NCBI RefSeq assembly: GCF_025244925.1
Contig: NZ_CP104275.1
Location: 2,666,001-2,730,000 of the forward strand
Direction: 5' to 3'
DNA: 64,000 nt
Source: Arthrobacter zhaoxinii
GTDB lineage: Bacteria > Actinomycetota > Actinomycetes > Actinomycetales > Micrococcaceae
Notes under the pieces: generated by a model
The model's input: the letters and a program-made list of their open reading frames with translations, nothing else
What the model was told of the DNA's origin: nothing
Database searches by the model: none
Made by a program: the position numbers and the translations under genes
Shown here: positions 49,362-62,970 of the stretch, piece after piece
Layout of the letters: every line of letters begins with the position of its first letter
Numbering within the stretch: position 1 is the stretch's first letter

Positions 49362-52300
49362 TCAGTGAGTGCGGTCCTCCTCCGCAGATGATGCCCGGTC
49401 GGGTGCGTCTGTCTCCGATCCGGTTCCCGCACCGCTGCGGGGCTCGGCCGCCGTGCTTCCCGTGCCGGCAGTGGTGTCCGTGGTGTCCGCCTCCGGGTAC
49501 CCGGATGCCGACGGCCCACTCCCCCGGGCCGGCTCCACGGGCGGTGCATACCCGGCCTCCGGAGCAGGCGGCGCGTACCCGAGCCCAGGTGCAGGTGCAG
49601 GTGCAGGTGCAGGTGCAGGTGCAGCGTACCCGGCATCCGGCGAAGTCGGGGCGTACCCGGCACCCGGTGCAGGCGGGGCATATCCGGCACCCGGTGCAGG
49701 CGGGGCATATCCGGTTTCCGGAGCACCCGGAGCATTCCCGGGCGTCGGAGCACCCGGAGCGTATCCGACTTCCGGAGCAGCCGGAGCAGCCGGCGCATAC
49801 GCGGGCGTCGGAGCACCCGGGGCACCCGGAGTACCCGGAGTACCCGGAACATTCCCGGGCTCGTCGGTCCGCACCCGCGTCAGCCGCCAGACGGCCAGGG
49901 CGATCAACCCGATGCCCAGCAGTGCCAGGAGCAGGAAGGTGTAGCCGCGAAGGTACCAAAGCACCGCCAGCACAACACCGGCCGCACCCCACAGGGTGAA
50001 CAGCCTTCTACTGGCGAGGAGACCGAACACCAGAAGTCCGGCGTGTGCCACCAGTGCCCAGAGCTGCCTTCCGCCTCCCCCGAAAATAGCCGTGGTGAGT
50101 CCGCTGGCGGACAGGATGACGGCCGCAACCGCCAGGATCACGGTGCCCCGCTGGTCACGCTTACGCAGGAACTCGTAGGCAGCCAGGCCGGTCAGCACTG
50201 CGGCCCAGTACTGCAGGGACCAGAATCCATTCACGTCACCCAGGACGAGCCAGCTGATTCTCTGCACTGCCAGTGCGGCCACGAGGGCCGCAGCTTGGAC
50301 GGCCGGTTCCCGGAACCGGGCGGGTACTTCGAAGAGCGCAAGCACCACGGCAACAACGACGGTCAGTGATCCGGCTGCAGCAGAGACATCCGGTGCCATT
50401 GCGGGAACGGCAGCAAAGGCCAGCACAAAGGCGGAGGCCGAGCCCAGGATCCTCCGGCGGAGCAGCGACGGCGGCACGGCACCGCGCGCGGCATTGCCGG
50501 GCCCGGACGTTTCGACCTGCTTCAGCGGGGTGGCCAGGCGGACTGCCTGAAGGACGGCCGCGGCGGCCCATATGGGCAGGAGGGACGCGAACCCCGCATC
50601 TTCGATGCCGCCGAGCACAGTATCGGTGAGCCCCTGGAACACGAACATCATCCCGACAACAAGCAGGGGCGGCAGGCCAACCGCCAGCCACGGCTGGCTC
50701 CGGGTGTAGGAGAGAACCAGGAAAACCGCCCCGCCCACTGCGAAGGCTGCCGCCGACAGGAAGCTGTTGTCCCCCGGCGCAGTGGTTACCAGGACCGTCG
50801 CGGTATAGGTGACGGCGATGACAAGCAACGCCGTGCGGGTGGGCTTATCGAGGGACCGGCGGGCTTCCCCCCACAGTGCTGCCACAGCAAGGGCAAGCAG
50901 GAGCGCCCCTGCCGCTCCACGGGCAAGCAGCGGGTCCGGGACGAACCCTCCGCTGCTGAGGACCACCGGCATCGCACCCAGTGCGTATCCGGCGGGATAG
51001 AGAACCCAGGCTGACCGGGGCCCGCCACCGCCGCGCCGGCGCATAAACGCCGCGGACCCGGTGACGAGGAGCAGGAAGAGGTGAAGGGCCACAACGAGGC
51101 GCTGGGTTGTTGGTCCGGCCTGGAAACCGTAATAGAACGGAAGGAGCGCCAGCAACGCGAGGCTCAACCACTGCGACGTTTCCGAATATCCGTGCGAGTC
51201 GAGGCGGCGCTCCAGCAGCGTACGGAGCAGCTGCTGGATCGCCAGCGCCGTTGCGCCGGCGATATAGAGGCCGTGCATGCCGGCTCCAAGATCGGCCGCT
51301 GCAAGGACCGTCAGCACCACCAGAAGCCCCTGTACGCCGAGCAGGTAGAGACCCTTATTCGTCTCTTCCCGCTTCAACGCGAGATACGCCGCGTAGGCCA
51401 AGGCTGCCAGGACCAGCAGTTCGTAGCCGCGCAGCCCCAGGACGCCGGCACCTATGGCTCCGGCGGCAGCAAATCCTGCCAGCGCCGCTACTTCATACCT
51501 GTCGGAAAGCAACAGTGAGGTGGCAGCATTTGCCGCCAGCGCGGTCCACAGCAACACCAGGGTCCAGCCGATCCCCTGCCCTTCGATTCCACGGGAGGCA
51601 ACCGTTGCCAGCAGTGCCACGAGTGCAGCCGCGGTGAGGAACCCGGCAGCCGACGGAAGCGGCTTTCCCCTGCGCACCTGGACGACGGCGGCCAGCTGGC
51701 TGAAGACCGCCACCCCGGCTGCACACAGGAGAAGGAACATCAGCATGCCGCTTTGGGCTGCCTGCGCCTGCAGCCCGAGATATGCCAGGGGAACTCCGGC
51801 GGAGGCGGCCAGCCCGCCCCACCGTGCCCATGATGCCAGGCCCAGCGGTTCCAGCCTCCCGGCAAGGAAAGTCCGCAGCACCTGTCCGACGGCGATTGCG
51901 ACGGCCACGGTGGCGAAGACCGAATGGATGCTTCCGGTGAGATCGGCCGCCACCAGCCCGGCCAGAACAAAGGCAAGAATCTGGGCAGCCAGGAGATAGG
52001 CGCCGCGGAAGGCATTGTTCCGCCCCAGGACGAGGTAGGCACAGTAGCCAAGCGCCGCCAGCACGAGGATCTCGTAGCCCGCCAGTCCCAGTGTCCCCGC
52101 GCCGATGACGGCCGCAGCGGCGAAACCGGCGGGTGCCGCCAGTGCAAGCCAGCTGCGGCGCAGCATCAGCGCGGTAAAGATGTTGACGGCCAGGGCACCC
52201 GCCAGAACAGCCACAGTGGCAATGCCGCTGTTTTCCTCGGCCATCCGCACACCGGCGCTGAGCAGCATTACCAGCGCTGCTGCAACTGCGGTACCAATGG

Positions 52301-55169
52301 CAGCAGTGGATCCGGCAGCGTACGGACCGCCCGCTGGAGGTAGAGTCCCGGCAGCCTTCGGAGCGGAATCGATTCCGGTCCGGTGGAGCGCGCCGAAACC
52401 GATGCGGCCCGCAGCGCCGAGGGTATAGGCCCCCTGAGTGAAGGCCGCAGTCCCGGCACCGATCAGCAGCAGGACAACGCCGGTGTCCGAACGTGCCGCG
52501 GTATAGGTGAGGATGTAGTAGAGCGGCGGCAGCATCCCGAGCAGGGTCAATGCTGTCCACAGGATGGTCCTGGACAAGCCGAAACCGTGAAGCCGGCGGT
52601 CAAAGACGATACGGGCCAGGTGCTGGACAGCCAGACAGACAGCCACGGTGATAAAGATGCCGTGCACGCCGGCACCGAAGTCTGCGGCAACCAGTCCGGT
52701 AAGGACAGTCAGTTGCACCTGGCCTGCCGCTATGTAGTAGCTCCGGTGTGTCCGGGGTGCCAGTTTCCCTGCCTGGACCGCGCAGTAGCAAAGGGCCGCG
52801 GCTGTGAGCAGCTCGTAACCCCTGACGCCGAACACGCCCGCACCGATGAGCGCTGCGGCAGAGAATCCTGCGGGTGCGGCCAGGAGGTACAGTCCGCGGG
52901 GCCGCAGCGCGGAGGTCAGCGCGTTGGAGGCCACAACAGCCCACAGTCCGGCCAGGGTCAGCGCCACGCCGGGCCGCTCCTGGACACTTAGCAACAGGGT
53001 CAGCCCGGCGGCACCGGCAGCTGCTGCGCCGATGGCGGTACCCGGGAACCGTTCGTCCTTTCCGCGCGAGATACGGATAACCGAGACAGTTTGGTTGACC
53101 GCCAGTGCCAGCACGGCGGAGACGAGGGCCCAGGCTGCTGTGTTTGCTCCTGCGGCGCCGGCAAGGGCGGCCAGGACCACCAGGGGTACCAGCAGGACGG
53201 CCGCCGCGCGTGCTGCGAGGACGAACACGGGGCGCGCCTGCGCATCGCTTCGCACAGCGCGGACCACCAGGTAGGCGACGAGGACTGCGGTAGCCGTGAC
53301 TCCCGGCCACAGGGTGCCGCCGGGCACGAGCATGTTGGGAATGAACGCGAGGGCGACGGGTACCACGACGGTGAACTCAAGCCGTCCGCCGAGTTTCCAC
53401 GCGGCAGCCAAATACGTCAGCAGGACCACGACGGCGGTTCCGGCGAAGGCAGCGGAACCACCCGCAGTCTGCCGCTCGGCAAACACATACCAAAGTCCCG
53501 CGGCCAGAGCGGTGCCCGCCTGCAGAATCAGAAGCGCGGCAACATCCACCCGGAAGAATCTGCGGGCCGCCACTTCGGGAGCCACGGCGGGTTTCTTCTT
53601 GAGGCTGACAGTAGCGGCGGGGGCAGGGGCGGGCGGGGACACGGCTGCCGGCGGAGCAGGGGGTGCCGGTGGTGCCGGCGGTAGTGACACCGACTTCCCA
53701 CCGGTGCCTGCAGCAGCTGCGTGCAGAGCGGCATCCGTGCCGGATACCGCTCCTGCTTCCGTCCGCGGACGGTGATCGACTTCCAGCGGCAGGCCGGTGC
53801 TCCTGGCCGCCACCTGCAGCAGGGCGGCGGTACCGTACAGCGGGCGTCGCGCCAGGACCCCCGCGGTCTGGGCGGCGACCTGGACGGCGAAGGCCAGCAG
53901 CGTCAGCTGGCTGCTGTCCGTAAAGGAGTAGAACAGGGACGTGAGCCCCACGGTGCCCGCCGCCCGCAGCCCGTAGCTGTTGACGAGCTGGTTGCGGGTA
54001 GGTCCCTGCCAGAGCATGACCGCGTAGTAAACGGCGAAGGAAAGGAACAGGATGCCCAGCTGCGCCGCGCTCAGCTGCCCGGAGATCTGGACGGAAGCGA
54101 TGGCCGTGGCCGGAACCAGATAACGGTGGGAACGGACAAAGGCATCTACGTAGAGGTTGTTCAACCAGGCGGGACGCCGGATGGCGGCGAGGCTGATCAA
54201 GGTGGCGAGGATAACCGTGAAGAGGAAATACCAGACAATTCCCCAGCGCAGTGCGGCACCGGAAGCAAGACCCGAGGACAGCAGGAAGGTCAGGGCAAGG
54301 TAGGTGACCACCCTGCTCTCGATCTTGGCAGCGGCAAAGGCAAACGCCGCCGTTCCGACCACCGAGGTCACCAGCCAGGCTGCCGGACCGTCAGGCAGCA
54401 CAAAATTGAACAGAGCGAGTCCCACCACGGGGATCAGGGCCAGGCCGGTGCCCGTGAAGGCAACGGCTGCCGGCTTCAGACGCGTGCTGCGGGAGTGTAT
54501 GACCAGTCCGGAAACATAGAAGAGCGCAGTGACGGCAACGACGCCGAAGAAGCGTGCCTCGGCGGGGATGGCCAGGCCAATGAACAGTGCCGCAGCAGCA
54601 ACCAGCAGGAGGCTGGCTGAGTAGAGCGTGATGTTGATGTTGCGCAGGTCCCGCCGGCGCTTCTCTTCCTTCAGCTGTGCTTCGGTCTTGACCGGCGGAG
54701 CCGGCCTGGGGGGAACGGGCCTGGGCTGATCAGCAGCGTTCCGGTGCGAGGTACCCGGTGCCGGGGCAGGGGCTGCCCGCCGCCCGACGGGGACCGGGAC
54801 GGGCTGCGCTGCGGGCATCGGAGCCCGAGGAGCCGCCGGGACGTCACGGGGGGAACCAGTGGGAGCCGTGGGGACGGAGGGTGACGCCGTCCCGGGGCGG
54901 GTCGGGGGTCCCGCAGGAGCGACAGGGGCAGTGAACCCGGAACCGGCCGGCGGGGGCGTAGCCGGGGATGGGTCGGATGCAGGAGCCGAACCAGCGGAGG
55001 ACCGCATTGAGTCGCTGAATCCCGCCCGGTAGCCCTCCTCGTAGATCTGGGCCGGCGGCGGCAGCGGCCTGCCCTGGCTGTCCACGGGCCGGGCAGCCTT
55101 CCTGCCCACCGTCCTGCCGACGAAGAAACTGGCGGTGACCGCGGCCAGGAATATAAGGAAGACCCCCAT
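49362..55169 (-). CDS. Giant multi-pass membrane protein (1935 residues) with internal repeats, function unknown
   Basis: The layout is: membrane helix near residues 3-19; Pro/Ala-rich region 55-160; basic stretch 165-176; a DUF2157-like start NINITLYSASLLLVAAAALF at 178-197; many hydrophobic helices to about 450; a Pro/Ala linker 495-530; then helices almost without break to about 1763. Three related units of 217-247 residues lie at about 720-1395, marked by AGFSAAALIGAGVFGVRGYE (767), AGFAAAAVIGAGTLGLAGYE (1014) and AGFAAAGAIGAGVLGLRGYE (1231). Each is followed about 61 residues later by an AAD...H...LAxxxLR-type segment ending in Trp. The C-terminus (1765-1935) is a Pro/Gly/Ala/Tyr-rich tail with GYAPPAPGA repeats, then an acidic end. 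No catalytic motif was seen. The protein could be a scaffold, channel or cell-envelope factor. GGAAGG precedes the ATG. Confidence 0.85.
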   Translation of the reverse strand: MGVFLIFLAAVTASFFVGRTVGRKAARPVDSQGRPLPPPAQIYEEGYRAGFSDSMRSSAGSAPASDPSPATPPPAGSGFTAPVAPAGPPTRPGTASPSVPTAPTGSPRDVPAAPRAPMPAAQPVPVPVGRRAAPAPAPGTSHRNAADQPRPVPPRPAPPVKTEAQLKEEKRRRDLRNINITLYSASLLLVAAAALFIGLAIPAEARFFGVVAVTALFYVSGLVIHSRSTRLKPAAVAFTGTGLALIPVVGLALFNFVLPDGPAAWLVTSVVGTAAFAFAAAKIESRVVTYLALTFLLSSGLASGAALRWGIVWYFLFTVILATLISLAAIRRPAWLNNLYVDAFVRSHRYLVPATAIASVQISGQLSAAQLGILFLSFAVYYAVMLWQGPTRNQLVNSYGLRAAGTVGLTSLFYSFTDSSQLTLLAFAVQVAAQTAGVLARRPLYGTAALLQVAARSTGLPLEVDHRPRTEAGAVSGTDAALHAAAAGTGGKSVSLPPAPPAPPAPPAAVSPPAPAPAATVSLKKKPAVAPEVAARRFFRVDVAALLILQAGTALAAGLWYVFAERQTAGGSAAFAGTAVVVLLTYLAAAWKLGGRLEFTVVVPVALAFIPNMLVPGGTLWPGVTATAVLVAYLVVRAVRSDAQARPVFVLAARAAAVLLVPLVVLAALAGAAGANTAAWALVSAVLALAVNQTVSVIRISRGKDERFPGTAIGAAAAGAAGLTLLLSVQERPGVALTLAGLWAVVASNALTSALRPRGLYLLAAPAGFSAAALIGAGVFGVRGYELLTAAALCYCAVQAGKLAPRTHRSYYIAAGQVQLTVLTGLVAADFGAGVHGIFITVAVCLAVQHLARIVFDRRLHGFGLSRTILWTALTLLGMLPPLYYILTYTAARSDTGVVLLLIGAGTAAFTQGAYTLGAAGRIGFGALHRTGIDSAPKAAGTLPPAGGPYAAGSTAAIGTAVAAALVMLLSAGVRMAEENSGIATVAVLAGALAVNIFTALMLRRSWLALAAPAGFAAAAVIGAGTLGLAGYEILVLAALGYCAYLVLGRNNAFRGAYLLAAQILAFVLAGLVAADLTGSIHSVFATVAVAIAVGQVLRTFLAGRLEPLGLASWARWGGLAASAGVPLAYLGLQAQAAQSGMLMFLLLCAAGVAVFSQLAAVVQVRRGKPLPSAAGFLTAAALVALLATVASRGIEGQGIGWTLVLLWTALAANAATSLLLSDRYEVAALAGFAAAGAIGAGVLGLRGYELLVLAALAYAAYLALKREETNKGLYLLGVQGLLVVLTVLAAADLGAGMHGLYIAGATALAIQQLLRTLLERRLDSHGYSETSQWLSLALLALLPFYYGFQAGPTTQRLVVALHLFLLLVTGSAAFMRRRGGGGPRSAWVLYPAGYALGAMPVVLSSGGFVPDPLLARGAAGALLLALAVAALWGEARRSLDKPTRTALLVIAVTYTATVLVTTAPGDNSFLSAAAFAVGGAVFLVLSYTRSQPWLAVGLPPLLVVGMMFVFQGLTDTVLGGIEDAGFASLLPIWAAAAVLQAVRLATPLKQVETSGPGNAARGAVPPSLLRRRILGSASAFVLAFAAVPAMAPDVSAAAGSLTVVVAVVLALFEVPARFREPAVQAAALVAALAVQRISWLVLGDVNGFWSLQYWAAVLTGLAAYEFLRKRDQRGTVILAVAAVILSASGLTTAIFGGGGRQLWALVAHAGLLVFGLLASRRLFTLWGAAGVVLAVLWYLRGYTFLLLALLGIGLIALAVWRLTRVRTDEPGNVPGTPGTPGAPGAPTPAYAPAAPAAPEVGYAPGAPTPGNAPGAPETGYAPPAPGAGYAPPAPGAGYAPTSPDAGYAAPAPAPAPAPAPGLGYAPPAPEAGYAPPVEPARGSGPSASGYPEADTTDTTAGTGSTAAEPRSGAGTGSETDAPDRASSAEEDRTH
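49586..49624. repeat. Hexanucleotide tandem repeat (CAGGTG)6.5 in the giant membrane protein gene
   Basis: 39 nt of the 6-bp unit CAGGTG, encoding an Ala-Pro run (PAPAPAPAPAP) in the C-terminal tail. Slippage would change tail length without shifting the frame. A second longer direct repeat of about 30 bp lies just beyond, at roughly 49655-49715, encoding repeated GYAPPAPGA units. Confidence 0.85.
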
Positions 55170-55372
55170 GAAACTGCTACCTTCCGGTTTTGTGCTCGAC
55201 TGGAGACCATCCTAGGGTGCTCCGGCTCACATCCCGGTAACTATTCCGCTCCGATGTGCGCGGTGTTGCCTGCCGGCTGCGTCCTGGTGTCCTGTGCAGG
55301 GACAGTCGCCCGGATGGTGCCGGCCGCCCGCCGGTTTGCCCGCGGGCTGTTCCCGCCGGGATTCCGAACTGC

Positions 55373-55430: not shown

Positions 55431-58400
55431 ATGTATCTTTCGGTCCTGGGAACACACGCGGGCATCACCGGAACGGTGCAGGTCCCCAATTCCAAATACC
55501 ACGCCCACCGGGCCCTCATCCTGGCTTCCCTGGCTCCGGGCACGAGCCGGATTTCGGGGCTCACCGATGCCCGCCATGTGCAGTACACGGTCTCCATGCT
55601 GCGCCAGCTCGGGACCGGAATAGAGGTGCAGGATGACACGTTCATTGTCCACGGCGGCCCCTACACTGCGCGGCGGCCGAGTGTCTCCGCAGGCAGCTCC
55701 GGCACCACCCTGTACTTCATGGCCGGACTCGCGGCGCTCGGGACACGCGACGTCGTCGTCACCGGGCAGAAGTACTTCCAGCGCCGTCCCATCGGTGCGT
55801 TGCTGGCGGCCCTCCGGGACATGGGCGTGGATATCGCTTCGAGTAACGACTGCCCGCCCCTCCGGGTGGCTCACGGGCGGCCGCGCGGCGGCGAAGTCCG
55901 CATATCCGGAACTCTGTCCCAGTGGATCTCCGGCCTGCTCCTGCTGGCACCGTTTGCCCGTTCCGAAACCACGGTGGTGGTGGAAGGCGTACAGAACGAA
56001 ACCAGCTATGTGGACCTGACACTCGCCATGATGGCGCGCTTCGGCCTGCAGGTGGACGCCTCCGCGGACCGTCGGCGCTTTCGCATCCCGCCGGACCAGC
56101 AGGCAGTTCCGGCCGATGTGAGGATGCCCCCGGATATCGGATCCGCCGCTTTCGGCCTGGCCGCAGCAGCCCTGCATCCGGCCGATGTTGCCCTTGCCGG
56201 GCTGCGTTCCACCTCCTCGGCCGGCTCCGACCATCCCGAAGCCGATTTCCTGGACCTTGCCGCCCACATGGGTGTGCCCATGGCCTACGATCCGGCAGCG
56301 GACGCGGTGCGGATCCGCCATCAGGGGCTCACCCTGCAGCCGATCGACGTGGATTGCCGCCGCGTGCCGGACATGCTTCCCGTGCTGACCGTCATGGCCT
56401 GCTTCGCGAAGGGCCGCAGCGTCTTCCGGAACATCGACCACGTGCGGATGAAGGAGTCTGACCGGGTGGCTGCCATGCTGCAGCTGAACTCAATGGGCGC
56501 GGACCTCACCGTGGAGGGTTCCACCCTGGCGATCCGCGGCACCGGCGGCCTGGACGGCGCCGATCTGTCCTCCTTCAACGACCACCGGGTCCTGATGTCC
56601 CTGGCCGTGGCAGCTTCAGCTGCGGAGGGACGCAGCACCCTGACCTATCCCCACGCCTACCGCATCTCCTACCCGGAATATCTGGCCGCCATGACCACTT
56701 TCGGGCTGCGGATGCAGGTCGAAGACGGCGCGATTCGCCGTCCCCTTCCCAGCCGCCCCGCCAGGACGGCAAGGGGGAGCCGGCCCCGGAATTTTGCCGG
56801 GCCGGCTGCTGTGGAAGCCTGCGCCGCCGTGACCGGCGCGGACTGGGTGCGGCGGTGGGCCGCGGAACGGCCCAACGAAACAGCAGTGGTCGACGGCGGC
56901 ACCGGGGCATCGGGGCACCTCACCTGGGCCGAGCTCGACACGCAGGCGGACCGCGTAGCCGCGGCGCTGCTGGCGCTGGGGGTGCGGCCGGGTGACCGGG
57001 TGGCCTTCCAGCTCCCCAACCGAAGCGAATTCGTTGTCCTCACCGTGGCGGTGCTCCGACTCGGCGCCGTCGCCGCGCCGATCATGCCGATCTTCCGGGA
57101 GCGCGAAGTGGCACTGGCACTGCACCGCGCCGCCGCCCGGGTATTTGTCACCGTGGAGGAGTTCCGCGGACGCCTGCCGGCCGAGGAACTCGCCGGCCTC
57201 CTCCGGCGGCCGGACGGAACCGGCGCAGCGCCGCTTGCCCTGGCCCACGTCCTTGTGCTGCGGGAGCCGGCGTCCACCCGTCCTCTCCCCCGCATCAGCG
57301 GCGGCCCGCGGTTCGCCGACTGGGACACGGTCCTGCGGCAGGAGCGCCCCGCGGCAGCACCGGATCCCGGGTCCGCGCCGACTGCCCGGGACGCGGCGCA
57401 GCTGCTGTTCACCTCGGGCACCTCCGGCGAACCCAAGGGCGTGGTGCACCGGCATGGAACACTCAGCCGCGCTGCGGCCATGGAAGCCGTGCACCTGGGG
57501 CTCACCAGCGACGACGCTGTCTTCATTCCATCGCCACTGGCCCACCAAACCGGCTTCCTCTACGGCATGTGGCTCTCATTCGTGCTCGGCTGTCCGCAGA
57601 TCCTGCAGCCGGCCTGGAACCCGGAACGCGCCCTGCAGCTCATGCGCGGCTGGCGGGCCACCTTCGTCCAGGCCGCCACCCCGTTCCTGGCCGATCTGGT
57701 GTCCGCAGTGGACGCGGGCACCCCCGCGCCGCCCACCCTGCGCATCTTCGTCGCCACCGGGGCGGCGGTCCCCCGGCACCTCGCCGAACGTGCCACACGC
57801 ATCTTGGGCGCCGGGATCTGCGGTGCCTTCGGCACCACTGAAACCTGCCTGGGCACCCTGGCCTCGCCCCGGGACGAACCGGTAAAGGTGTGGGGCACCG
57901 ACGGCCGGGAGCTGGCGGGCGTGCGGACCCGGGTGGTCGACGACGACGGCCGCCTCCTGCCGCCCGGGGTGGAAGGCAACTTCGAGCTCAGTTCTCCCAC
58001 GGTCTTTGACGGTTACCTTGACCGCCCGGACTTGACCAAGGAAGTCTTTACCGAAGACGGCTGGTACCGCACCGGCGACACGGCGATCCTCGACGAAGCC
58101 GGGTTCCTGCGCATTACCGGCCGGGTTCGCGACATCATCAACCGCGGAGGGGAGAAAATCCCGGTGGCCGAGATCGAGCAGCTGATCTACCGGCATCCAG
58201 CCGTACGCGACGTTGCCCTGGCCGCCATGCCCGATGAACGCCTCGGCGAGCGGGCCTGCGCCTTCGTGGTCCCGGAACCTGGGAATCGCCCGCTGCTGGC
58301 GGACCTCACCGCGTTCCTCGACCGCCACCATGTCTCAAGGCACTACTGGCCCGAACGCCTTGAGCTGGTCGACGCCCTCCCCCGCAACGCCGTCGGCAAG

Positions 58401-58466
58401 GTGCAGAAGTTCCTGCTGCGGGAAATCACCCGCAGCTTCCCCGCACCGGATCGGAGCAGCCAGTGA
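55431..58466 (+). CDS. EPSP-synthase-like domain fused to an acyl-CoA ligase (AnsJ/AnsK or PlmJK type)
   Basis: 1011 residues in two parts. Residues 1-430 are an AroA (EPSP synthase) fold: VQVPNSKYHAHRALILASL, QRRPIG (117-122), PDIGSAAFGLAAAAL (235 on), MKESDRVAAM (340 on) and FNDHR (382-386). Lys22, Arg27, Arg119, Asp235, Lys341, Arg345 and Arg386 align with catalytic or ligand residues. However Ser23 is Tyr, the SSQ phosphate-site triplet reads LSQ, the Arg/Lys before PY-ID is lost and the Lys411 equivalent is gone, which argues against a 3-phosphate/PEP reaction. Residues 455-1011 are an ANL-superfamily CoA ligase: LLFTSGTSGEPKGVV (P-loop, 658 on), YRTGD, GRVRDIINRGGEKI and the catalytic Lys in NAVGKVQKF. 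The stop overlaps the next gene (GTGA). The start at 55431 is chosen because conserved sequence begins there. Predicted role: activation and dehydration of shikimate on the way to cyclohexanecarboxyl-CoA. Confidence 0.85.
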   Translation: MYLSVLGTHAGITGTVQVPNSKYHAHRALILASLAPGTSRISGLTDARHVQYTVSMLRQLGTGIEVQDDTFIVHGGPYTARRPSVSAGSSGTTLYFMAGLAALGTRDVVVTGQKYFQRRPIGALLAALRDMGVDIASSNDCPPLRVAHGRPRGGEVRISGTLSQWISGLLLLAPFARSETTVVVEGVQNETSYVDLTLAMMARFGLQVDASADRRRFRIPPDQQAVPADVRMPPDIGSAAFGLAAAALHPADVALAGLRSTSSAGSDHPEADFLDLAAHMGVPMAYDPAADAVRIRHQGLTLQPIDVDCRRVPDMLPVLTVMACFAKGRSVFRNIDHVRMKESDRVAAMLQLNSMGADLTVEGSTLAIRGTGGLDGADLSSFNDHRVLMSLAVAASAAEGRSTLTYPHAYRISYPEYLAAMTTFGLRMQVEDGAIRRPLPSRPARTARGSRPRNFAGPAAVEACAAVTGADWVRRWAAERPNETAVVDGGTGASGHLTWAELDTQADRVAAALLALGVRPGDRVAFQLPNRSEFVVLTVAVLRLGAVAAPIMPIFREREVALALHRAAARVFVTVEEFRGRLPAEELAGLLRRPDGTGAAPLALAHVLVLREPASTRPLPRISGGPRFADWDTVLRQERPAAAPDPGSAPTARDAAQLLFTSGTSGEPKGVVHRHGTLSRAAAMEAVHLGLTSDDAVFIPSPLAHQTGFLYGMWLSFVLGCPQILQPAWNPERALQLMRGWRATFVQAATPFLADLVSAVDAGTPAPPTLRIFVATGAAVPRHLAERATRILGAGICGAFGTTETCLGTLASPRDEPVKVWGTDGRELAGVRTRVVDDDGRLLPPGVEGNFELSSPTVFDGYLDRPDLTKEVFTEDGWYRTGDTAILDEAGFLRITGRVRDIINRGGEKIPVAEIEQLIYRHPAVRDVALAAMPDERLGERACAFVVPEPGNRPLLADLTAFLDRHHVSRHYWPERLELVDALPRNAVGKVQKFLLREITRSFPAPDRSSQ

Positions 58467-59713
58467 CCACTGCAGCCATCACCGCCGACGGACGGGGCAG
58501 CAGCATCCCGGAGCCGGAATACCTCGACCTGCTGGCGGCCGTTACCGCCTGGGTCGAGGGTCCCGGCGAGGAATGGGCCGGACTCATCGAAACCACCGGC
58601 ACCGTGCCGGACGCCCTGTGGAAGGAACTGCGCGGGGCCGGGTTCCTCTCCCTGGCAGCTCCGGCGAATCTCGGCGGGCGGGGGCTGAGCTTTGTCCAGT
58701 GGATGGGGCTGATGGAAATCTTCTCCCGTTCACACGCCTCGGTCCGCATGATTGTGCACGTGGTCAACGGCACCTGGCGGGCCATGAACCCGCACGTTGA
58801 CGACGTGCAGCGCCGGAAGTTCATCCGCCCGTCCGTCGCCGGCGACCTTCTGGTCGCCTTCACCCTGACCGAGCCCGGCAACGGCACGGGCGCCGACATC
58901 AGCTCGAGTGTGCGGCGGGCGGGCGACACGTACTACCTCACCGGCCGCAAGCATCTGATCACGTTCGGGGTGCGGTGCGATTATTGGCTGCTGTTTGCCC
59001 GGCTGGCCGGGAGCACGGGAAGCGGGGGCACGGTGGCACTGCTGGTGGACCGGCACGCCCCCGGCGTCGAAGTGGAAGACACGTCCGACACCCTGGGCGT
59101 CCGCGGCACCGACCACGCGTCCCTGACGTTCACGGACACCCCCGTCCCTGTCGCCAACCGGATCGGGGAGGAAGGGGACGGATTGGCCGTCGCGCTGGGC
59201 GGCTTCCTCACGCCCAGCCGGATCTCCGTAGCGATGAGCTGCGTCGGCCTGGCCCAGCGCGCCCAGCAGCTGGCGGTCTCCTACGCCCTGGAGCGCACCA
59301 CCTTCGGGAAGCCGCTCGCCTCGCGGCAGGCCGTCGCCTTCGCCCTGGCGGAAAACGCCGCTGACATCGCGGCGGCCCGCGCGCTGACCCTGCATGCCGC
59401 CGCCGCGTGGCAGGACGGCACGGCCGACGCCGGCTCCCTATCCTCGATGGCCAAGCTCACCGCCGTCGACATGCTCACCCGCGTAACGGACAAGGCCCTG
59501 CAGGTCCACGGGGGCGTGGGGTACTGGAAGACCATGCCCATTGAACGCGTGTACCGCGACGCACGGGCGCAGCGCTTCGAAGAAGGGACGAACGAGATCC
59601 AGAAAACCGTGATTGCCCGCGGCCTTCTTGGCCGGTTCCAGGCACCCGCGCCCGACGGCGGACGCGTCCCTGCCCCTGCCGGCCCCGGCACGGCTCCGGC
59701 CGCCCGCCCCTGA
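58463..59713 (+). CDS. Acyl-CoA dehydrogenase (AnsL/PlmL-like)
   Basis: 416-residue FAD enzyme of the acyl-CoA dehydrogenase family. Signature 1 is AFTLTEPGNGTGADISSSVR (FAD and substrate contacts), then the FAD-stacking helices (VSYALERTTFGKPLASRQAV) and QVHGGVGYWKTMPIERVYRD. The catalytic glutamate is in RFEEGTNEIQKT, the usual position for short- and medium-chain types. The GTG start overlaps the fusion-gene stop. Context suggests it acts on a cyclohexene- or cyclohexadienecarboxyl-CoA, introducing or isomerising a double bond. About 20 Pro/Ala-rich residues follow the family core. Confidence 0.88.
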   Translation: MTTAAITADGRGSSIPEPEYLDLLAAVTAWVEGPGEEWAGLIETTGTVPDALWKELRGAGFLSLAAPANLGGRGLSFVQWMGLMEIFSRSHASVRMIVHVVNGTWRAMNPHVDDVQRRKFIRPSVAGDLLVAFTLTEPGNGTGADISSSVRRAGDTYYLTGRKHLITFGVRCDYWLLFARLAGSTGSGGTVALLVDRHAPGVEVEDTSDTLGVRGTDHASLTFTDTPVPVANRIGEEGDGLAVALGGFLTPSRISVAMSCVGLAQRAQQLAVSYALERTTFGKPLASRQAVAFALAENAADIAAARALTLHAAAAWQDGTADAGSLSSMAKLTAVDMLTRVTDKALQVHGGVGYWKTMPIERVYRDARAQRFEEGTNEIQKTVIARGLLGRFQAPAPDGGRVPAPAGPGTAPAARP

Positions 59714-59720
59714 TACCGTC

Positions 59721-61730
59721 ATGCTGGACCGGGTGTTCTCCCCCGTCTCCCTCGGTCCGCTGCACCTGGACCACCGGATCGTGATGGGGTCGATGCATCT
59801 GAACCGGGAGGACGATCCCCGGGCCCTCGCAGCGTTCTACCGCGAACGGGCAGCCGGCGGAGCCGGCCTGATTGTCACCGGAGGCGCTGCGGTCAGCCGG
59901 GCCGGTGCCGGCGGTCCCAACTACCTGCTGATCAACGAACCCGCAGCGGCAGCCGTGATGATGCCGGTCCTGGACGCCGTGCACGACGCCGGCGGGAAAC
60001 TGGCCCTGCAGTTGTTCCATGCGGGGCGCTATGCCTTCGAAGCCAGCTTCGGCATCCGCCCCGTGGCGCCGTCGGAGGTTTACTCGGCCTTCTCCCGATG
60101 CCTGCCCCGCGCGCTGACGCTGGCGCAGATCGAGGACACCCTTGCCGATTTCGCTGCCGGCGCTGCCGCAGCGCGCGCCCTCGGCTTCGATGCCGTGGAA
60201 ATCATGGGCTCCGAGGGCTACCTGATCAACCAGTTCGCCTCTCCCCTGACGAACCGGCGCCGGGACCGCTGGGGAGGGGATCCGCAGCACAGGCAGGCCT
60301 TTCCGCGGGCGGTGCTGAAGGCCGTCCGGGAGGCCGTGGGCACCGGTTACCCGGTCATTTACCGCACGTCCGGTGCTGACTTCACGGCGGGCTCCAGCAC
60401 CCGGGCGGAGTCAGCTGACCTGGCGGTGGCACTGGCACGGGACGGGGCGGACGCGGTCAACGTCGGCATCGGCTGGCACGAGTCCCGGGCCCCCTCGGTG
60501 CAGGCTTTGGTTCCCCCCGGCCGCTGGCTGGACATTGCCGGCGGGATCCGCGGAGCACTTGCTGCCGCGGACGTTCGGGTCCCGGTGATCGGCAGCAACC
60601 GGATCAACTCGCTGGAATCCGCGGAGCGTGCCCTGGCCGCCGGGCACGCGGACCTGATCTCGATGGCCCGCCCCTTCCTCGCCGACCCGGACATCGTCGC
60701 CAAGTCCCGGCGCGGCGAGTCCCATCTCGTCAATACCTGCATCGCCTGCAACGAGGCCTGCATCGACCGGTCCCTGGGTACCGAGCCGGTCTCCTGCCTG
60801 GTGAACCCGCGGGCCGGGCGCGAAACCGTCTTCCCGCTGCGGGCAGTTCCGCCGCCCGCCGGAGTACGCGTGGCAGTGGTGGGAGCCGGTCCGGCCGGTA
60901 TGCAGGCCGCGGCGACGCTCGCGGAGGCCGGGCATGCGGTGGATCTTTATGAACGGGAGGGTGCCATTGGCGGCCAGTTCCGGCTCGCCGGGCAGGTGCC
61001 GGGCAAAGCCGACTTCCTGCAGACCATCCGCTATTTCACCAATGAACTGGCGCGGCTGGGCGTACACGTGCTGACAGGCGCGGCCCCCGGCGTCGCGCAT
61101 CTGGCCCGCTACGCGCACGTAGTCCTGGCCACGGGGGTGCGCCCGCGGCCCGTGCCGCTGCCCCGCAGCGGCCTGCTTCCCGTGCTGGATTACCGGCAGG
61201 CGTTCGCGGACCCGGCGAGGCTGGGGGCTCGCGTGGTGATTGTGGGTGCCGGCGGAATCGCAGTGGATCTCTCCCGCCTGCTCGTGGATCCAGGGGCACC
61301 CGGCGGCGCCCGGGACGTCACGATCCTGCGCCGCGGCAAACGGATCGGTGCAGGCATCGGCCCGTCCACCCGGTGGGCGGTGCTGCAGGAGATCCGGGCC
61401 GCCGGTGTCCGGACCCTGCCCGGCACCACGCCGCTGGAAGTATCCCGCCAGGGGCTCCGGGTGCGGGACGGGAACGGGGCCGCGGCGCTGCTGCCGGCCG
61501 ACGCCGTCGTGCTGGCCGCCGGGCAGGTGCCGCACAATCCGTTCCACGCACCGTTGGCGGTCCGCGGTGTCCCCTGCACGGTGATCGGCGGAGCACTGGA
61601 TGCGTCCGGGCTGAACGCGGTCCGGGCCTTCGACCAGGGCCTGACCGCAGGGACAGCGGTAGCGCGCCAGCTGGTCGGGCGGACACCGGGGCAGCCGGGG
61701 GTTAAAAGCAGCAGGGCCCCGCTGCCATAA
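59721..61730 (+). CDS. NADPH-dependent 2,4-dienoyl-CoA reductase-type flavoenzyme (FadH family; AnsM/PlmM-like)
   Basis: 669 residues, the length of E. coli FadH (672). The N-terminal old-yellow-enzyme barrel binds FMN and has both FadH-type catalytic residues: Tyr167 in GSEGYLINQF and His253 in GIGWHESRAP. The 4Fe-4S cysteines are Cys340, Cys343, Cys347 and Cys359 (CIACNEACID, SCLVNP). FAD and NADPH domains follow (VAVVGAGPAGMQAAATLAEA and VVIVGAGGIAVDL). It should reduce a conjugated dienoyl-CoA. The start at 59721 is 7 bp after the previous stop; the longer frame reads through the dehydrogenase tail. It ends inside the loop of a terminator. Confidence 0.9.
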   Translation: MLDRVFSPVSLGPLHLDHRIVMGSMHLNREDDPRALAAFYRERAAGGAGLIVTGGAAVSRAGAGGPNYLLINEPAAAAVMMPVLDAVHDAGGKLALQLFHAGRYAFEASFGIRPVAPSEVYSAFSRCLPRALTLAQIEDTLADFAAGAAAARALGFDAVEIMGSEGYLINQFASPLTNRRRDRWGGDPQHRQAFPRAVLKAVREAVGTGYPVIYRTSGADFTAGSSTRAESADLAVALARDGADAVNVGIGWHESRAPSVQALVPPGRWLDIAGGIRGALAAADVRVPVIGSNRINSLESAERALAAGHADLISMARPFLADPDIVAKSRRGESHLVNTCIACNEACIDRSLGTEPVSCLVNPRAGRETVFPLRAVPPPAGVRVAVVGAGPAGMQAAATLAEAGHAVDLYEREGAIGGQFRLAGQVPGKADFLQTIRYFTNELARLGVHVLTGAAPGVAHLARYAHVVLATGVRPRPVPLPRSGLLPVLDYRQAFADPARLGARVVIVGAGGIAVDLSRLLVDPGAPGGARDVTILRRGKRIGAGIGPSTRWAVLQEIRAAGVRTLPGTTPLEVSRQGLRVRDGNGAAALLPADAVVLAAGQVPHNPFHAPLAVRGVPCTVIGGALDASGLNAVRAFDQGLTAGTAVARQLVGRTPGQPGVKSSRAPLP

Positions 61731-61779: not shown

Positions 61780-62970
61780 TTACTTGATGATCTTGGTGAC
61801 GCGGCCTGATCCAACGGTGCGGCCGCCTTCGCGGATAGCGAAGCCGAGGCCCTCTTCCATTGCGATCGGCTGGATGAGCTCAACGCTCATCTCAGTGTTA
61901 TCGCCGGGCATAACCATTTCAGTGCCCTCGGGGAGGGTGATGACGCCGGTTACGTCCGTGGTGCGGAAGTAGAACTGCGGGCGGTAGTTCGAGTAGAACG
62001 GGTTGTGGCGTCCGCCTTCATCCTTGGACAGGATGTAGACGTTGGCCTCGAAGTCGGTGTGCGGGGTGATGGAACCCGGCTTTACGACAACCTGGCCACG
62101 CTCTACGTCTTCGCGCTTGATGCCGCGGAGCAGCAGGCCACAGTTCTCGCCGGCCCATGCTTCGTCAAGCTGCTTGTGGAACATCTCGATACCGGTAACC
62201 GTGGTCTTCTGGACCGGACGGATGCCGACGATCTCGACCTCGGAGTTGATGGCGAGGGTACCGCGCTCGGCGCGGCCCGTGACAACGGTTCCACGACCGG
62301 TGATCGTGAAGACGTCCTCGATCGGCATCAGGAACGGCTTGTCCTTGTCGCGAACGGGGTCCGGCACGTTGTTGTCAACGGCTTCCATGAGCTCTTCGAC
62401 GGCTGCAACCCACTTGGGGTCGCCTTCGAGAGCCTTGAGGCCGGAAACGCGGACGACGGGAGCGTTGTCGCCGTCGAAGTCCTGGGAGCTCAGCAGTTCG
62501 CGAACTTCCATTTCCACGAGGTCGAGCAGTTCTTCGTCGTCAACCATGTCGGACTTGTTCAGTGCGACCAGCAGGTAGGGAACGCCAACCTGGCGGGCGA
62601 GCAGAACGTGCTCGCGGGTCTGGGCCATCGGACCGTCGGTAGCGGCAACCACGAGGATTGCGCCGTCCATCTGAGCTGCACCAGTGATCATGTTCTTGAT
62701 GTAGTCAGCGTGGCCGGGGGCGTCTACGTGTGCGTAGTGGCGCTTCTCGGTCTGGTACTCGATGTGAGAGATGTTGATGGTGATGCCGCGCTGGCGCTCT
62801 TCAGGTGCAGAGTCGATAGCAGCGAAATCGCGCTTTTCATTCAGATCAGGGTACTTGTCAGCAAGCACCTTCGAAATGGCAGCGGTCAACGTCGTCTTAC
62901 CATGGTCAACGTGACCAATGGTGCCGATGTTGACGTGCGGCTTAGTCCGCTCGAACTTTGCCTTCGCCAC
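61780..62970 (-). CDS. tuf: Elongation factor Tu
   Basis: 396-residue GTPase that carries aminoacyl-tRNA to the ribosome. G1 is [10 protein letters not shown] (P-loop), G2 RGITI, G3 DAPGH, G4 NKSD, and the C-terminal beta-barrel domains end in [14 protein letters not shown]. The [13 protein letters not shown] switch I is standard. Of normal length, with a single copy visible. It lies 219 bp after fusA with a hairpin and its own promoter in the gap, and converges on the FadH-type gene. Confidence 0.99.

Follow-up and report, generated by a model that had tools for sequence, protein, structure and literature searches.

The 64,000 nt window of Arthrobacter zhaoxinii DNA analysed here, taken from a genome that consists of a single 3.47 Mb contig, contains a cassette of three plus-strand genes for which, together with partners elsewhere on the contig, we propose a role in converting shikimate to cyclohexanecarboxyl-CoA (CHC-CoA). 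The first gene (55431..58466, 1011 aa), defined from its open reading frame, Pfam and NCBIfam matches, homologues and a tree, encodes a PlmJK-like fusion of a domain resembling 5-enolpyruvylshikimate-3-phosphate (EPSP) synthase (residues 11-419, 55461..56687) with an AMP-forming acyl-CoA ligase domain recognised by Pfam and NCBIfam (residues 474-990, 56850..58400). Its start at 55431 is conserved; the open frame itself opens at 55254. It is followed, with a 4-base overlap, by an acyl-CoA dehydrogenase (ACAD) gene of the PlmL/AnsL type (58463..59713, 416 aa) and, after a gap of 7 bases, by the gene of a FadH/old yellow enzyme (OYE)-type dienoyl-CoA reductase resembling PlmM/AnsM (59721..61730, 669 aa).

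The fusion matches the Pfam families EPSP_synthase (272 bits), AMP-binding (245 bits) and AMP-binding_C (54 bits), and the best NCBIfam model for its ligase domain is TIGR03208, cyclohexanecarboxylate-CoA ligase, at 449 bits and thus under the cut-off of 792. The dehydrogenase shows the Pfam Acyl-CoA_dh N, M and 1 domains, scores 133 bits, below cut-off, against TIGR03207 (a cyclohexanecarboxylate dehydrogenase-type model) and retains the EGTNEIQ motif, whose Glu we presume to be functional. In the third protein Oxidored_FMN (211 bits) and Pyr_redox_2 (88 bits) are found, and E. coli 2,4-dienoyl-CoA reductase (1ps9) aligns with residues 5-641 in two stretches (438 bits), the Tyr, the His and the Cys cluster all being kept; we take this Tyr and His to be the catalytic residues. 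Both the tight packing and the intact Tyr and His are as the earlier note on this DNA had described them. Relative to A. yangruifuii L015, the nonsynonymous and synonymous divergences (dN/dS) are 0.054/0.470 for the fusion, 0.047/0.449 for the dehydrogenase and 0.098/0.556 for the OYE gene, and dN is well below dS in all six genes of the cassette and the ChcA locus described below. The three closely spaced cassette genes are genuine, and the selection acting on them is purifying.

The residues of the EPSP-synthase-like domain were mapped by alignment onto E. coli AroA numbering, the roles of the mapped residues being assumed from AroA, with S23, S169 and S197 taken as serines of the shikimate-3-phosphate site. 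The residues of the phosphoenolpyruvate (PEP) site are kept and the shikimate-3-phosphate site is altered: the domain retains K22, R27, R124, S170, Q171, D313, K340, E341, R344, H385 and R386, but in 80 or 81 of the 81 rows of the cassette family there is Y in place of S23, L of S169, E of S197, H of N336 and I of K411 (Y at S23 in 80 with one gap, L at S169 and E at S197 in all 81). An AroA-like protein of the same genome (L001) has Ser at S23, S169 and S197; it likewise has H in place of N336 and shows a gap opposite K411, so that only the three serine positions distinguish the cassette family. An E at S197 also occurs in two MurA-like proteins. The 18-letter residue signature is found in 107 of 120 further homologues, seven of the other 13 being gapped and six differing at one position. 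The simplest reading is that of a PEP-site enzyme whose other substrate would not be shikimate-3-phosphate.

A second locus with ChcA, ligase and ketosynthase

The earlier note had described an orphan cassette without chcA. This is true of the cassette itself, which has no ChcA-type short-chain dehydrogenase/reductase (SDR) between dehydrogenase and OYE genes, but not of the genome, where a ChcA query finds an orthologue about 1 Mb away (G000:C1:232598-233410, 398 bits, 68% identity; the next SDR reaches 117 bits). This candidate enoyl reductase (232595-233425 in genome coordinates), whose best match among solved structures is the enoyl-acyl carrier protein reductase 3oic (172 bits), is directly followed by genes for an AMP-forming ligase (233456-235135) and a FabF-type ketosynthase (KAS; 235136-236368). 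The KAS scores 490 bits against TIGR03150, just below the cut-off of 494, and 475 bits against NF005589 (cut-off 387). The whole locus (G000:C1:232595-236368) lies ~0.97 Mb from the cassette by the shorter way, if the contig is circular. The cassette does not, therefore, stand alone in its genome.

In six Streptomyces loci (L036-L040, L043) all six genes are contiguous, and OYE is followed there by a KAS and a ligase that share 60-61% and 61-63% identity with their second-locus counterparts; the canonical FabF of the Arthrobacter genome is only 40% identical to the second-locus KAS. The two Arthrobacter loci thus add up to the gene content of one such cluster and, judged by this content, Arthrobacter carries a six-gene Streptomyces-type cluster split in two. 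The same split exists in two Cellulomonas genomes, with ChcA (75% identity), ligase (72%) and KAS (80-81%) adjacent; Specibacter is split differently, into fusion-ACAD-ChcA at one place and ligase-KAS at another. A ChcA tree, of which only the clade of unlinked ChcA was used since some of its outgroup SDR rows are spurious (branches up to 9.6), unites eight rows of unlinked ChcA with a support of 100/98. Immediately upstream of ChcA in the Arthrobacter genome are genes for a histidine kinase and a response regulator (L099 7595-9489, plus strand), and these are adjoined on the opposite strand by an ABC-transporter-like pair, an FtsX permease and an ATPase read by eye.

Distribution and gene order in relatives

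The full-length fusion is present in 19 of 28 genomes of the genus, our own included, and in none of 31 genomes of other genera; counting the locus of A. zhaoxinii zg-Y108 (L084 in G059), the nearest named relative by its fusion (98%), the figure becomes 20 of 29. Dehydrogenase and OYE are each found in 20 of these 29 genomes, ChcA and KAS in an identical 21. Twenty genomes have both halves, one has just the ChcA half and eight have neither. ChcA plus KAS accordingly accompany the cassette in 20/20 cases as against 1/9 cassette-free genomes (Fisher p 2e-6, calculated over genomes that are not independent of each other).

A scan of species genomes gave 406 confirmed relatives, and the following counts refer to the best 80 of these 406 loci, with hand-set thresholds for the presence of neighbours; 21 of the 80 are shorter than 20 kb and were retained, so that absences of neighbours are upper bounds. 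The most common order is fusion-ACAD-ChcA-OYE (22 loci), followed by fusion-ACAD-OYE (12 loci, ten in Arthrobacter and two in Cellulomonas). Two kinds of ketosynthase, KASa and KASb, extend the set: KASb-fusion-ACAD-ChcA-OYE (nine loci), fusion-ACAD-ChcA-OYE-KASa-ligase (the six Streptomyces loci), the same without the ligase (five) and the set with a divergent KASa (five). Seven loci have fusion-ACAD-ChcA, three of them in named Arthrobacter that form a different lineage in the fusion tree, and in five Streptomyces loci (L041, L045, L046, L055, L075) the set occurs with 3-amino-5-hydroxybenzoic acid (AHBA) genes. The remainder consists of fusion-ACAD (three), the fusion alone (three), KASb-fusion (two) and KASb downstream (one). 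In total, the run fusion-ACAD-ChcA-OYE, with chcA between dehydrogenase and OYE, is found in 53 loci, ChcA in 60 and a KAS in 28. The set, far from being an orphan, spans at least 19 named genera plus metagenome-assembled genomes (MAGs) of Eremiobacterota. The Arthrobacter/Cellulomonas group of the fusion tree (99, by SH-aLRT only) has Sinomonas beside it (93); since the Sinomonas cassettes carry ChcA, the loss of chcA from the Arthrobacter cassette looks derived.

Several single loci deviate from these patterns. Five Micrococcaceae cassettes (L028-L032) are without OYE, and their genomes hold only a 45-46% identical OYE homologue elsewhere. The MAG loci L051 and L067 show fusion-ACAD with no ChcA or OYE nearby, and their assemblies contain no close ChcA, the best matches reaching 106 and 87 bits. 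S. xiaopingdaonensis and S. albus NRRL B-1811 possess a second fusion gene (L063 10001-12964; L082 10001-13000) whose fetched flanks contain neither ACAD nor ChcA nor OYE; the cassette of each is on another contig (L047, L048). Fusion homologues P0032, P0033 and P0038 and KASa homologues P0295, P0311, P0314 and P0331 (63-68% identity) come from MAGs named as Gammaproteobacteria/Rhodanobacteraceae.

A KAS tree of 56 rows unites the KASa, 13 of them linked to a cassette and 12 not, in one clade (100/99) that excludes the canonical FabF rows, and the KASb of Eremiobacterota and of the unclassified MAG L094, which lie beside the cassette, form a separate clade on a long branch (100/100). The tree took 13 of 16 linked KASa loci and nine of 12 KASb (L038, L039, L070, L065, L066 and L068 were left out), and four of its rows (L164, L165, L167, L169) represent the same gene twice, the row L164 labelled fab being the linked KASa of L061. 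Cys, His and His, which we take to be the KAS triad, are kept in the two KASa and two KASb examples that were aligned. 3-Deoxy-D-arabino-heptulosonate 7-phosphate (DAHP) synthase is the entry enzyme of the shikimate pathway. Its gene adjoins the cassette, on the strand opposite to the fusion, in nine of 12 Eremiobacterota loci, the other three ending early; that of L052 (471-1433, minus strand) scores 370 bits against TIGR01361 (cut-off 268). KAS of two clades and the first enzyme of the shikimate pathway, all encoded beside the cassette, suggest that shikimate goes in and that chain elongation follows.

A putative route from shikimate to ring-tipped fatty acids

Fusion, dehydrogenase, ChcA and OYE are all present in the Arthrobacter genome. 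From gene content, homology, gene order in relatives, co-occurrence and conserved active-site residues we propose that the two loci probably convert shikimate to CHC-CoA as a primer for omega-cyclohexyl fatty acids of the membrane, with substrate, intermediates, product and lipid all predicted from sequence. The EPSP-synthase-like domain would take unphosphorylated shikimate, perhaps with PEP, activating or removing a ring hydroxyl, and the fused ligase would form the CoA ester. Acyl-CoA dehydrogenase, dienoyl-CoA reductase and ChcA could then isomerise and reduce the ring to yield CHC-CoA. A ChcB-type isomerase also belongs to the CHC-CoA pathway, and CHC-CoA has reportedly been produced heterologously in Streptomyces. 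The product might prime type II fatty-acid synthesis via FabH; the genome has three KASIII-like matches, one of them beside canonical FabF, and acceptance of CHC-CoA by such an enzyme is presumed. The dedicated KAS would extend the cyclohexyl-bearing chain to omega-cyclohexyl fatty acids destined for the membrane, and the second ligase may load cyclohexanecarboxylate or recapture it when free.

A lipid destination of CHC-CoA is likely. The genome encodes two FabF-class ketosynthases, that of the second locus and the housekeeping FabF, and its five further PF00109 matches (20-28 bits) are thiolases; a polyketide synthase (PKS) of its own, considered as user of the product, was rejected because, besides the second-locus KAS, the FabF class is represented only by the housekeeping enzyme. 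The earlier note had remarked on the lack of a PKS at the cassette and had suggested use as a starter for omega-alicyclic fatty acids, which without a PKS in the genome would be the most economical use. Partly reduced products of the cyclohexene or dihydroxycyclohexane type, also suggested then, are less likely than full reduction given that ChcA is present. A PKS motif scan was negative in all 80 loci (up to 10 kb on each side) and, having had no positive control, carries no weight.

Could CHC-CoA or cyclohexenyl-CoA instead be destined mainly for a small metabolite that is secreted or acts as a signal, or be turned into an amide or ester by the second ligase? Where AHBA genes adjoin it, and in clusters of the phoslactomycin type, the same set does serve a secondary metabolite; the second AMP-ligase accompanies ChcA and KAS, and the transporter-like pair lies near the two-component genes upstream of ChcA. 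However, with no PKS in the genome and with KAS of two separate clades beside stand-alone cassettes, which suggests chain elongation, we consider this unlikely. It is more improbable still that the pathway has partly decayed or been re-routed in Arthrobacter, ChcA serving otherwise and the cassette ending at a cyclohexene- or dihydroxycyclohexane-carboxyl-CoA. Such a state would fit a cassette devoid of chcA and a genome (G009) with ChcA-ligase-KAS and no cassette, but not the presence of ChcA and KAS in every one of the 20 genus genomes that bear the cassette, the selection on all six genes or the split shared by two Cellulomonas genomes. A catabolic module, activating and dehydrogenating shikimate, quinate or cyclohexanecarboxylate for growth, appears very improbable: the ligase domain and the dehydrogenase resemble TIGR03208 and TIGR03207, both below cut-off, but the EPSP-like domain, the enoyl-reductase-like SDR and the KAS would have no evident place in it, nor would a DAHP synthase beside nine Eremiobacterota cassettes be expected. 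That the N-terminal domain of the fusion is a second AroA, for instance a herbicide-tolerant copy with unrelated neighbours, is hardly credible: its score against the aroA equivalog (312 bits) exceeds the cut-off of 287 and the PEP-site residues are kept, but the key phosphate-site serines are lost, L001 has these serines, and the gene order is conserved across phyla.

A number of observations weigh against the proposed shikimate-to-lipid route, apart from the relatedness of the genus genomes. Because G009 has ChcA-ligase-KAS without the cassette, and because KASa also occurs in Cryobacterium (known from a KASa search alone), the function of KAS and ChcA may be a different one. No KAS lies within the fetched flanks of 52 of the 80 loci. 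In 13 named genomes outside the genus the cassette has no KAS linked to it; nine of these hold a KASa at 60-81% identity, but four have no close one: two Sinomonas (44-45%), a MAG (none at all) and a Luteimicrobium, whose best match reaches 38-40%. Of 11 genomes with OYE-less cassettes searched for the missing gene, seven (five Micrococcaceae, a Kitasatospora and one Streptomyces) contain only a 45-46% homologue and two MAGs nothing close. Herbiconiux daphne has the EPSP-like protein and its major fatty acids, as listed in the available part of PMC10011130, do not include cyclohexyl-C17:0. Searches of open-licence papers brought up no report of an Arthrobacter cyclohexyl fatty acid and no analysis of the lipids or CoA esters of this organism, which agrees with the earlier statement that no description was known from the genus.

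The presence of omega-cyclohexyl fatty acids is regarded as characteristic of Alicyclobacillus, a thermo-acidophilic genus, and of a small number of others. Tentatively, and with less confidence than we place in the route itself, the set might represent a widespread actinobacterial lipid system instead of a side pathway of antibiotic synthesis, based on an EPSP-synthase offshoot acting on unphosphorylated shikimate and on a ketosynthase of its own, recruited on two independent occasions (KASa in Actinomycetota, KASb in Eremiobacterota). Ring-tipped membrane lipids would then be far commoner in mesophilic soil bacteria than is known, and antibiotic clusters would have borrowed their starter genes from this system. 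If the proposed route holds, the genes for omega-cyclohexyl fatty acids can be identified from genome sequences, where they occupy one locus or two, and the trait can be predicted for no fewer than 19 named genera among the 80 loci and for the uncultured Eremiobacterota known from MAGs. The set would gain KAS and ligase as two new candidate members and a testable first step, an EPSP-synthase fold with the phosphate-site serines replaced in the members read.

Outside the set, the cassette is flanked as previously described. The convergent tuf gene (61780..62970, minus strand; EF-Tu equivalog, 707 bits) flanks all ten Arthrobacter three-gene loci and also Sinomonas L024. The divergent neighbour (49362..55169, minus strand) encodes a 1935-aa protein without a Pfam or NCBIfam match, Ala/Pro-rich and, from its many hydrophobic stretches read by eye, presumably a membrane protein; homologous stretches are found in nine of the ten Arthrobacter loci and weakly in Sinomonas L022.

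Relation to known systems

Alicyclobacillus makes omega-cyclohexyl fatty acids. The likeness of our system to this genus, Curtobacterium and Sulfobacillus lies in the ring-tipped fatty acids predicted for it and, on the side of the genes, in a Curtobacterium MAG EPSP-like protein that carries the cassette residue signature, as do six from Herbiconiux. For Curtobacterium such acids appear in a title in the reference list of PMC5118839, and for Sulfobacillus the part of PMC4378227 available derives ring-tipped fatty acids from shikimate and states that the genes, which it does not name, were identified. In the corresponding part of PMC10011130, the Herbiconiux genus description has 'Cyclohexyl-C17:0 may be present', and the major acids listed for five new strains do not include it. 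A precedent for the proposed fate is the asukamycin producer, in which, according to an extract of PMC4147253, CHC-CoA gives rise to omega-cyclohexyl fatty acids amounting to 3.1% of the total.

The lactomycin/phoslactomycin table (pnP1-P4, lmP1-P4) in the accessible part of PMC5852498 lists plmJK, plmL, ChcA and plmM in that order, the products being a ligase (a fusion by its name JK), an acyl-CoA dehydrogenase, a cyclohexenylcarbonyl-CoA reductase and an NADH:FMN oxidoreductase, so that the window cassette corresponds to this set less ChcA. Unlike these clusters, with which it is compared by gene listing and not by plm sequences, Arthrobacter has no PKS, and its chcA lies apart from the cassette, together with genes for a ligase and a KAS of the FabF type. 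The AHBA-linked Streptomyces loci share fusion-ACAD-ChcA-OYE (EPSP part 61-62%, ACAD 67-71%, ChcA 65-67% and OYE 53-54% identical) but are adjoined by AHBA genes and have no KASa, KASb or second ligase in the fetched flanks. They are presumably of the ansatrienin type; in L045 the AHBA phosphatase matches TIGR01454 (349 bits, cut-off 247) and the AHBA synthase was named by eye, the other four loci being recognised by matches to these two genes. The listed gene order and the five AHBA-linked loci make the kinship of the cassette with the plm/ans CHC-CoA set, which the earlier note had proposed, highly probable. The stand-alone Streptomyces cassette has the same six genes as the two Arthrobacter loci, contiguous there and not split.

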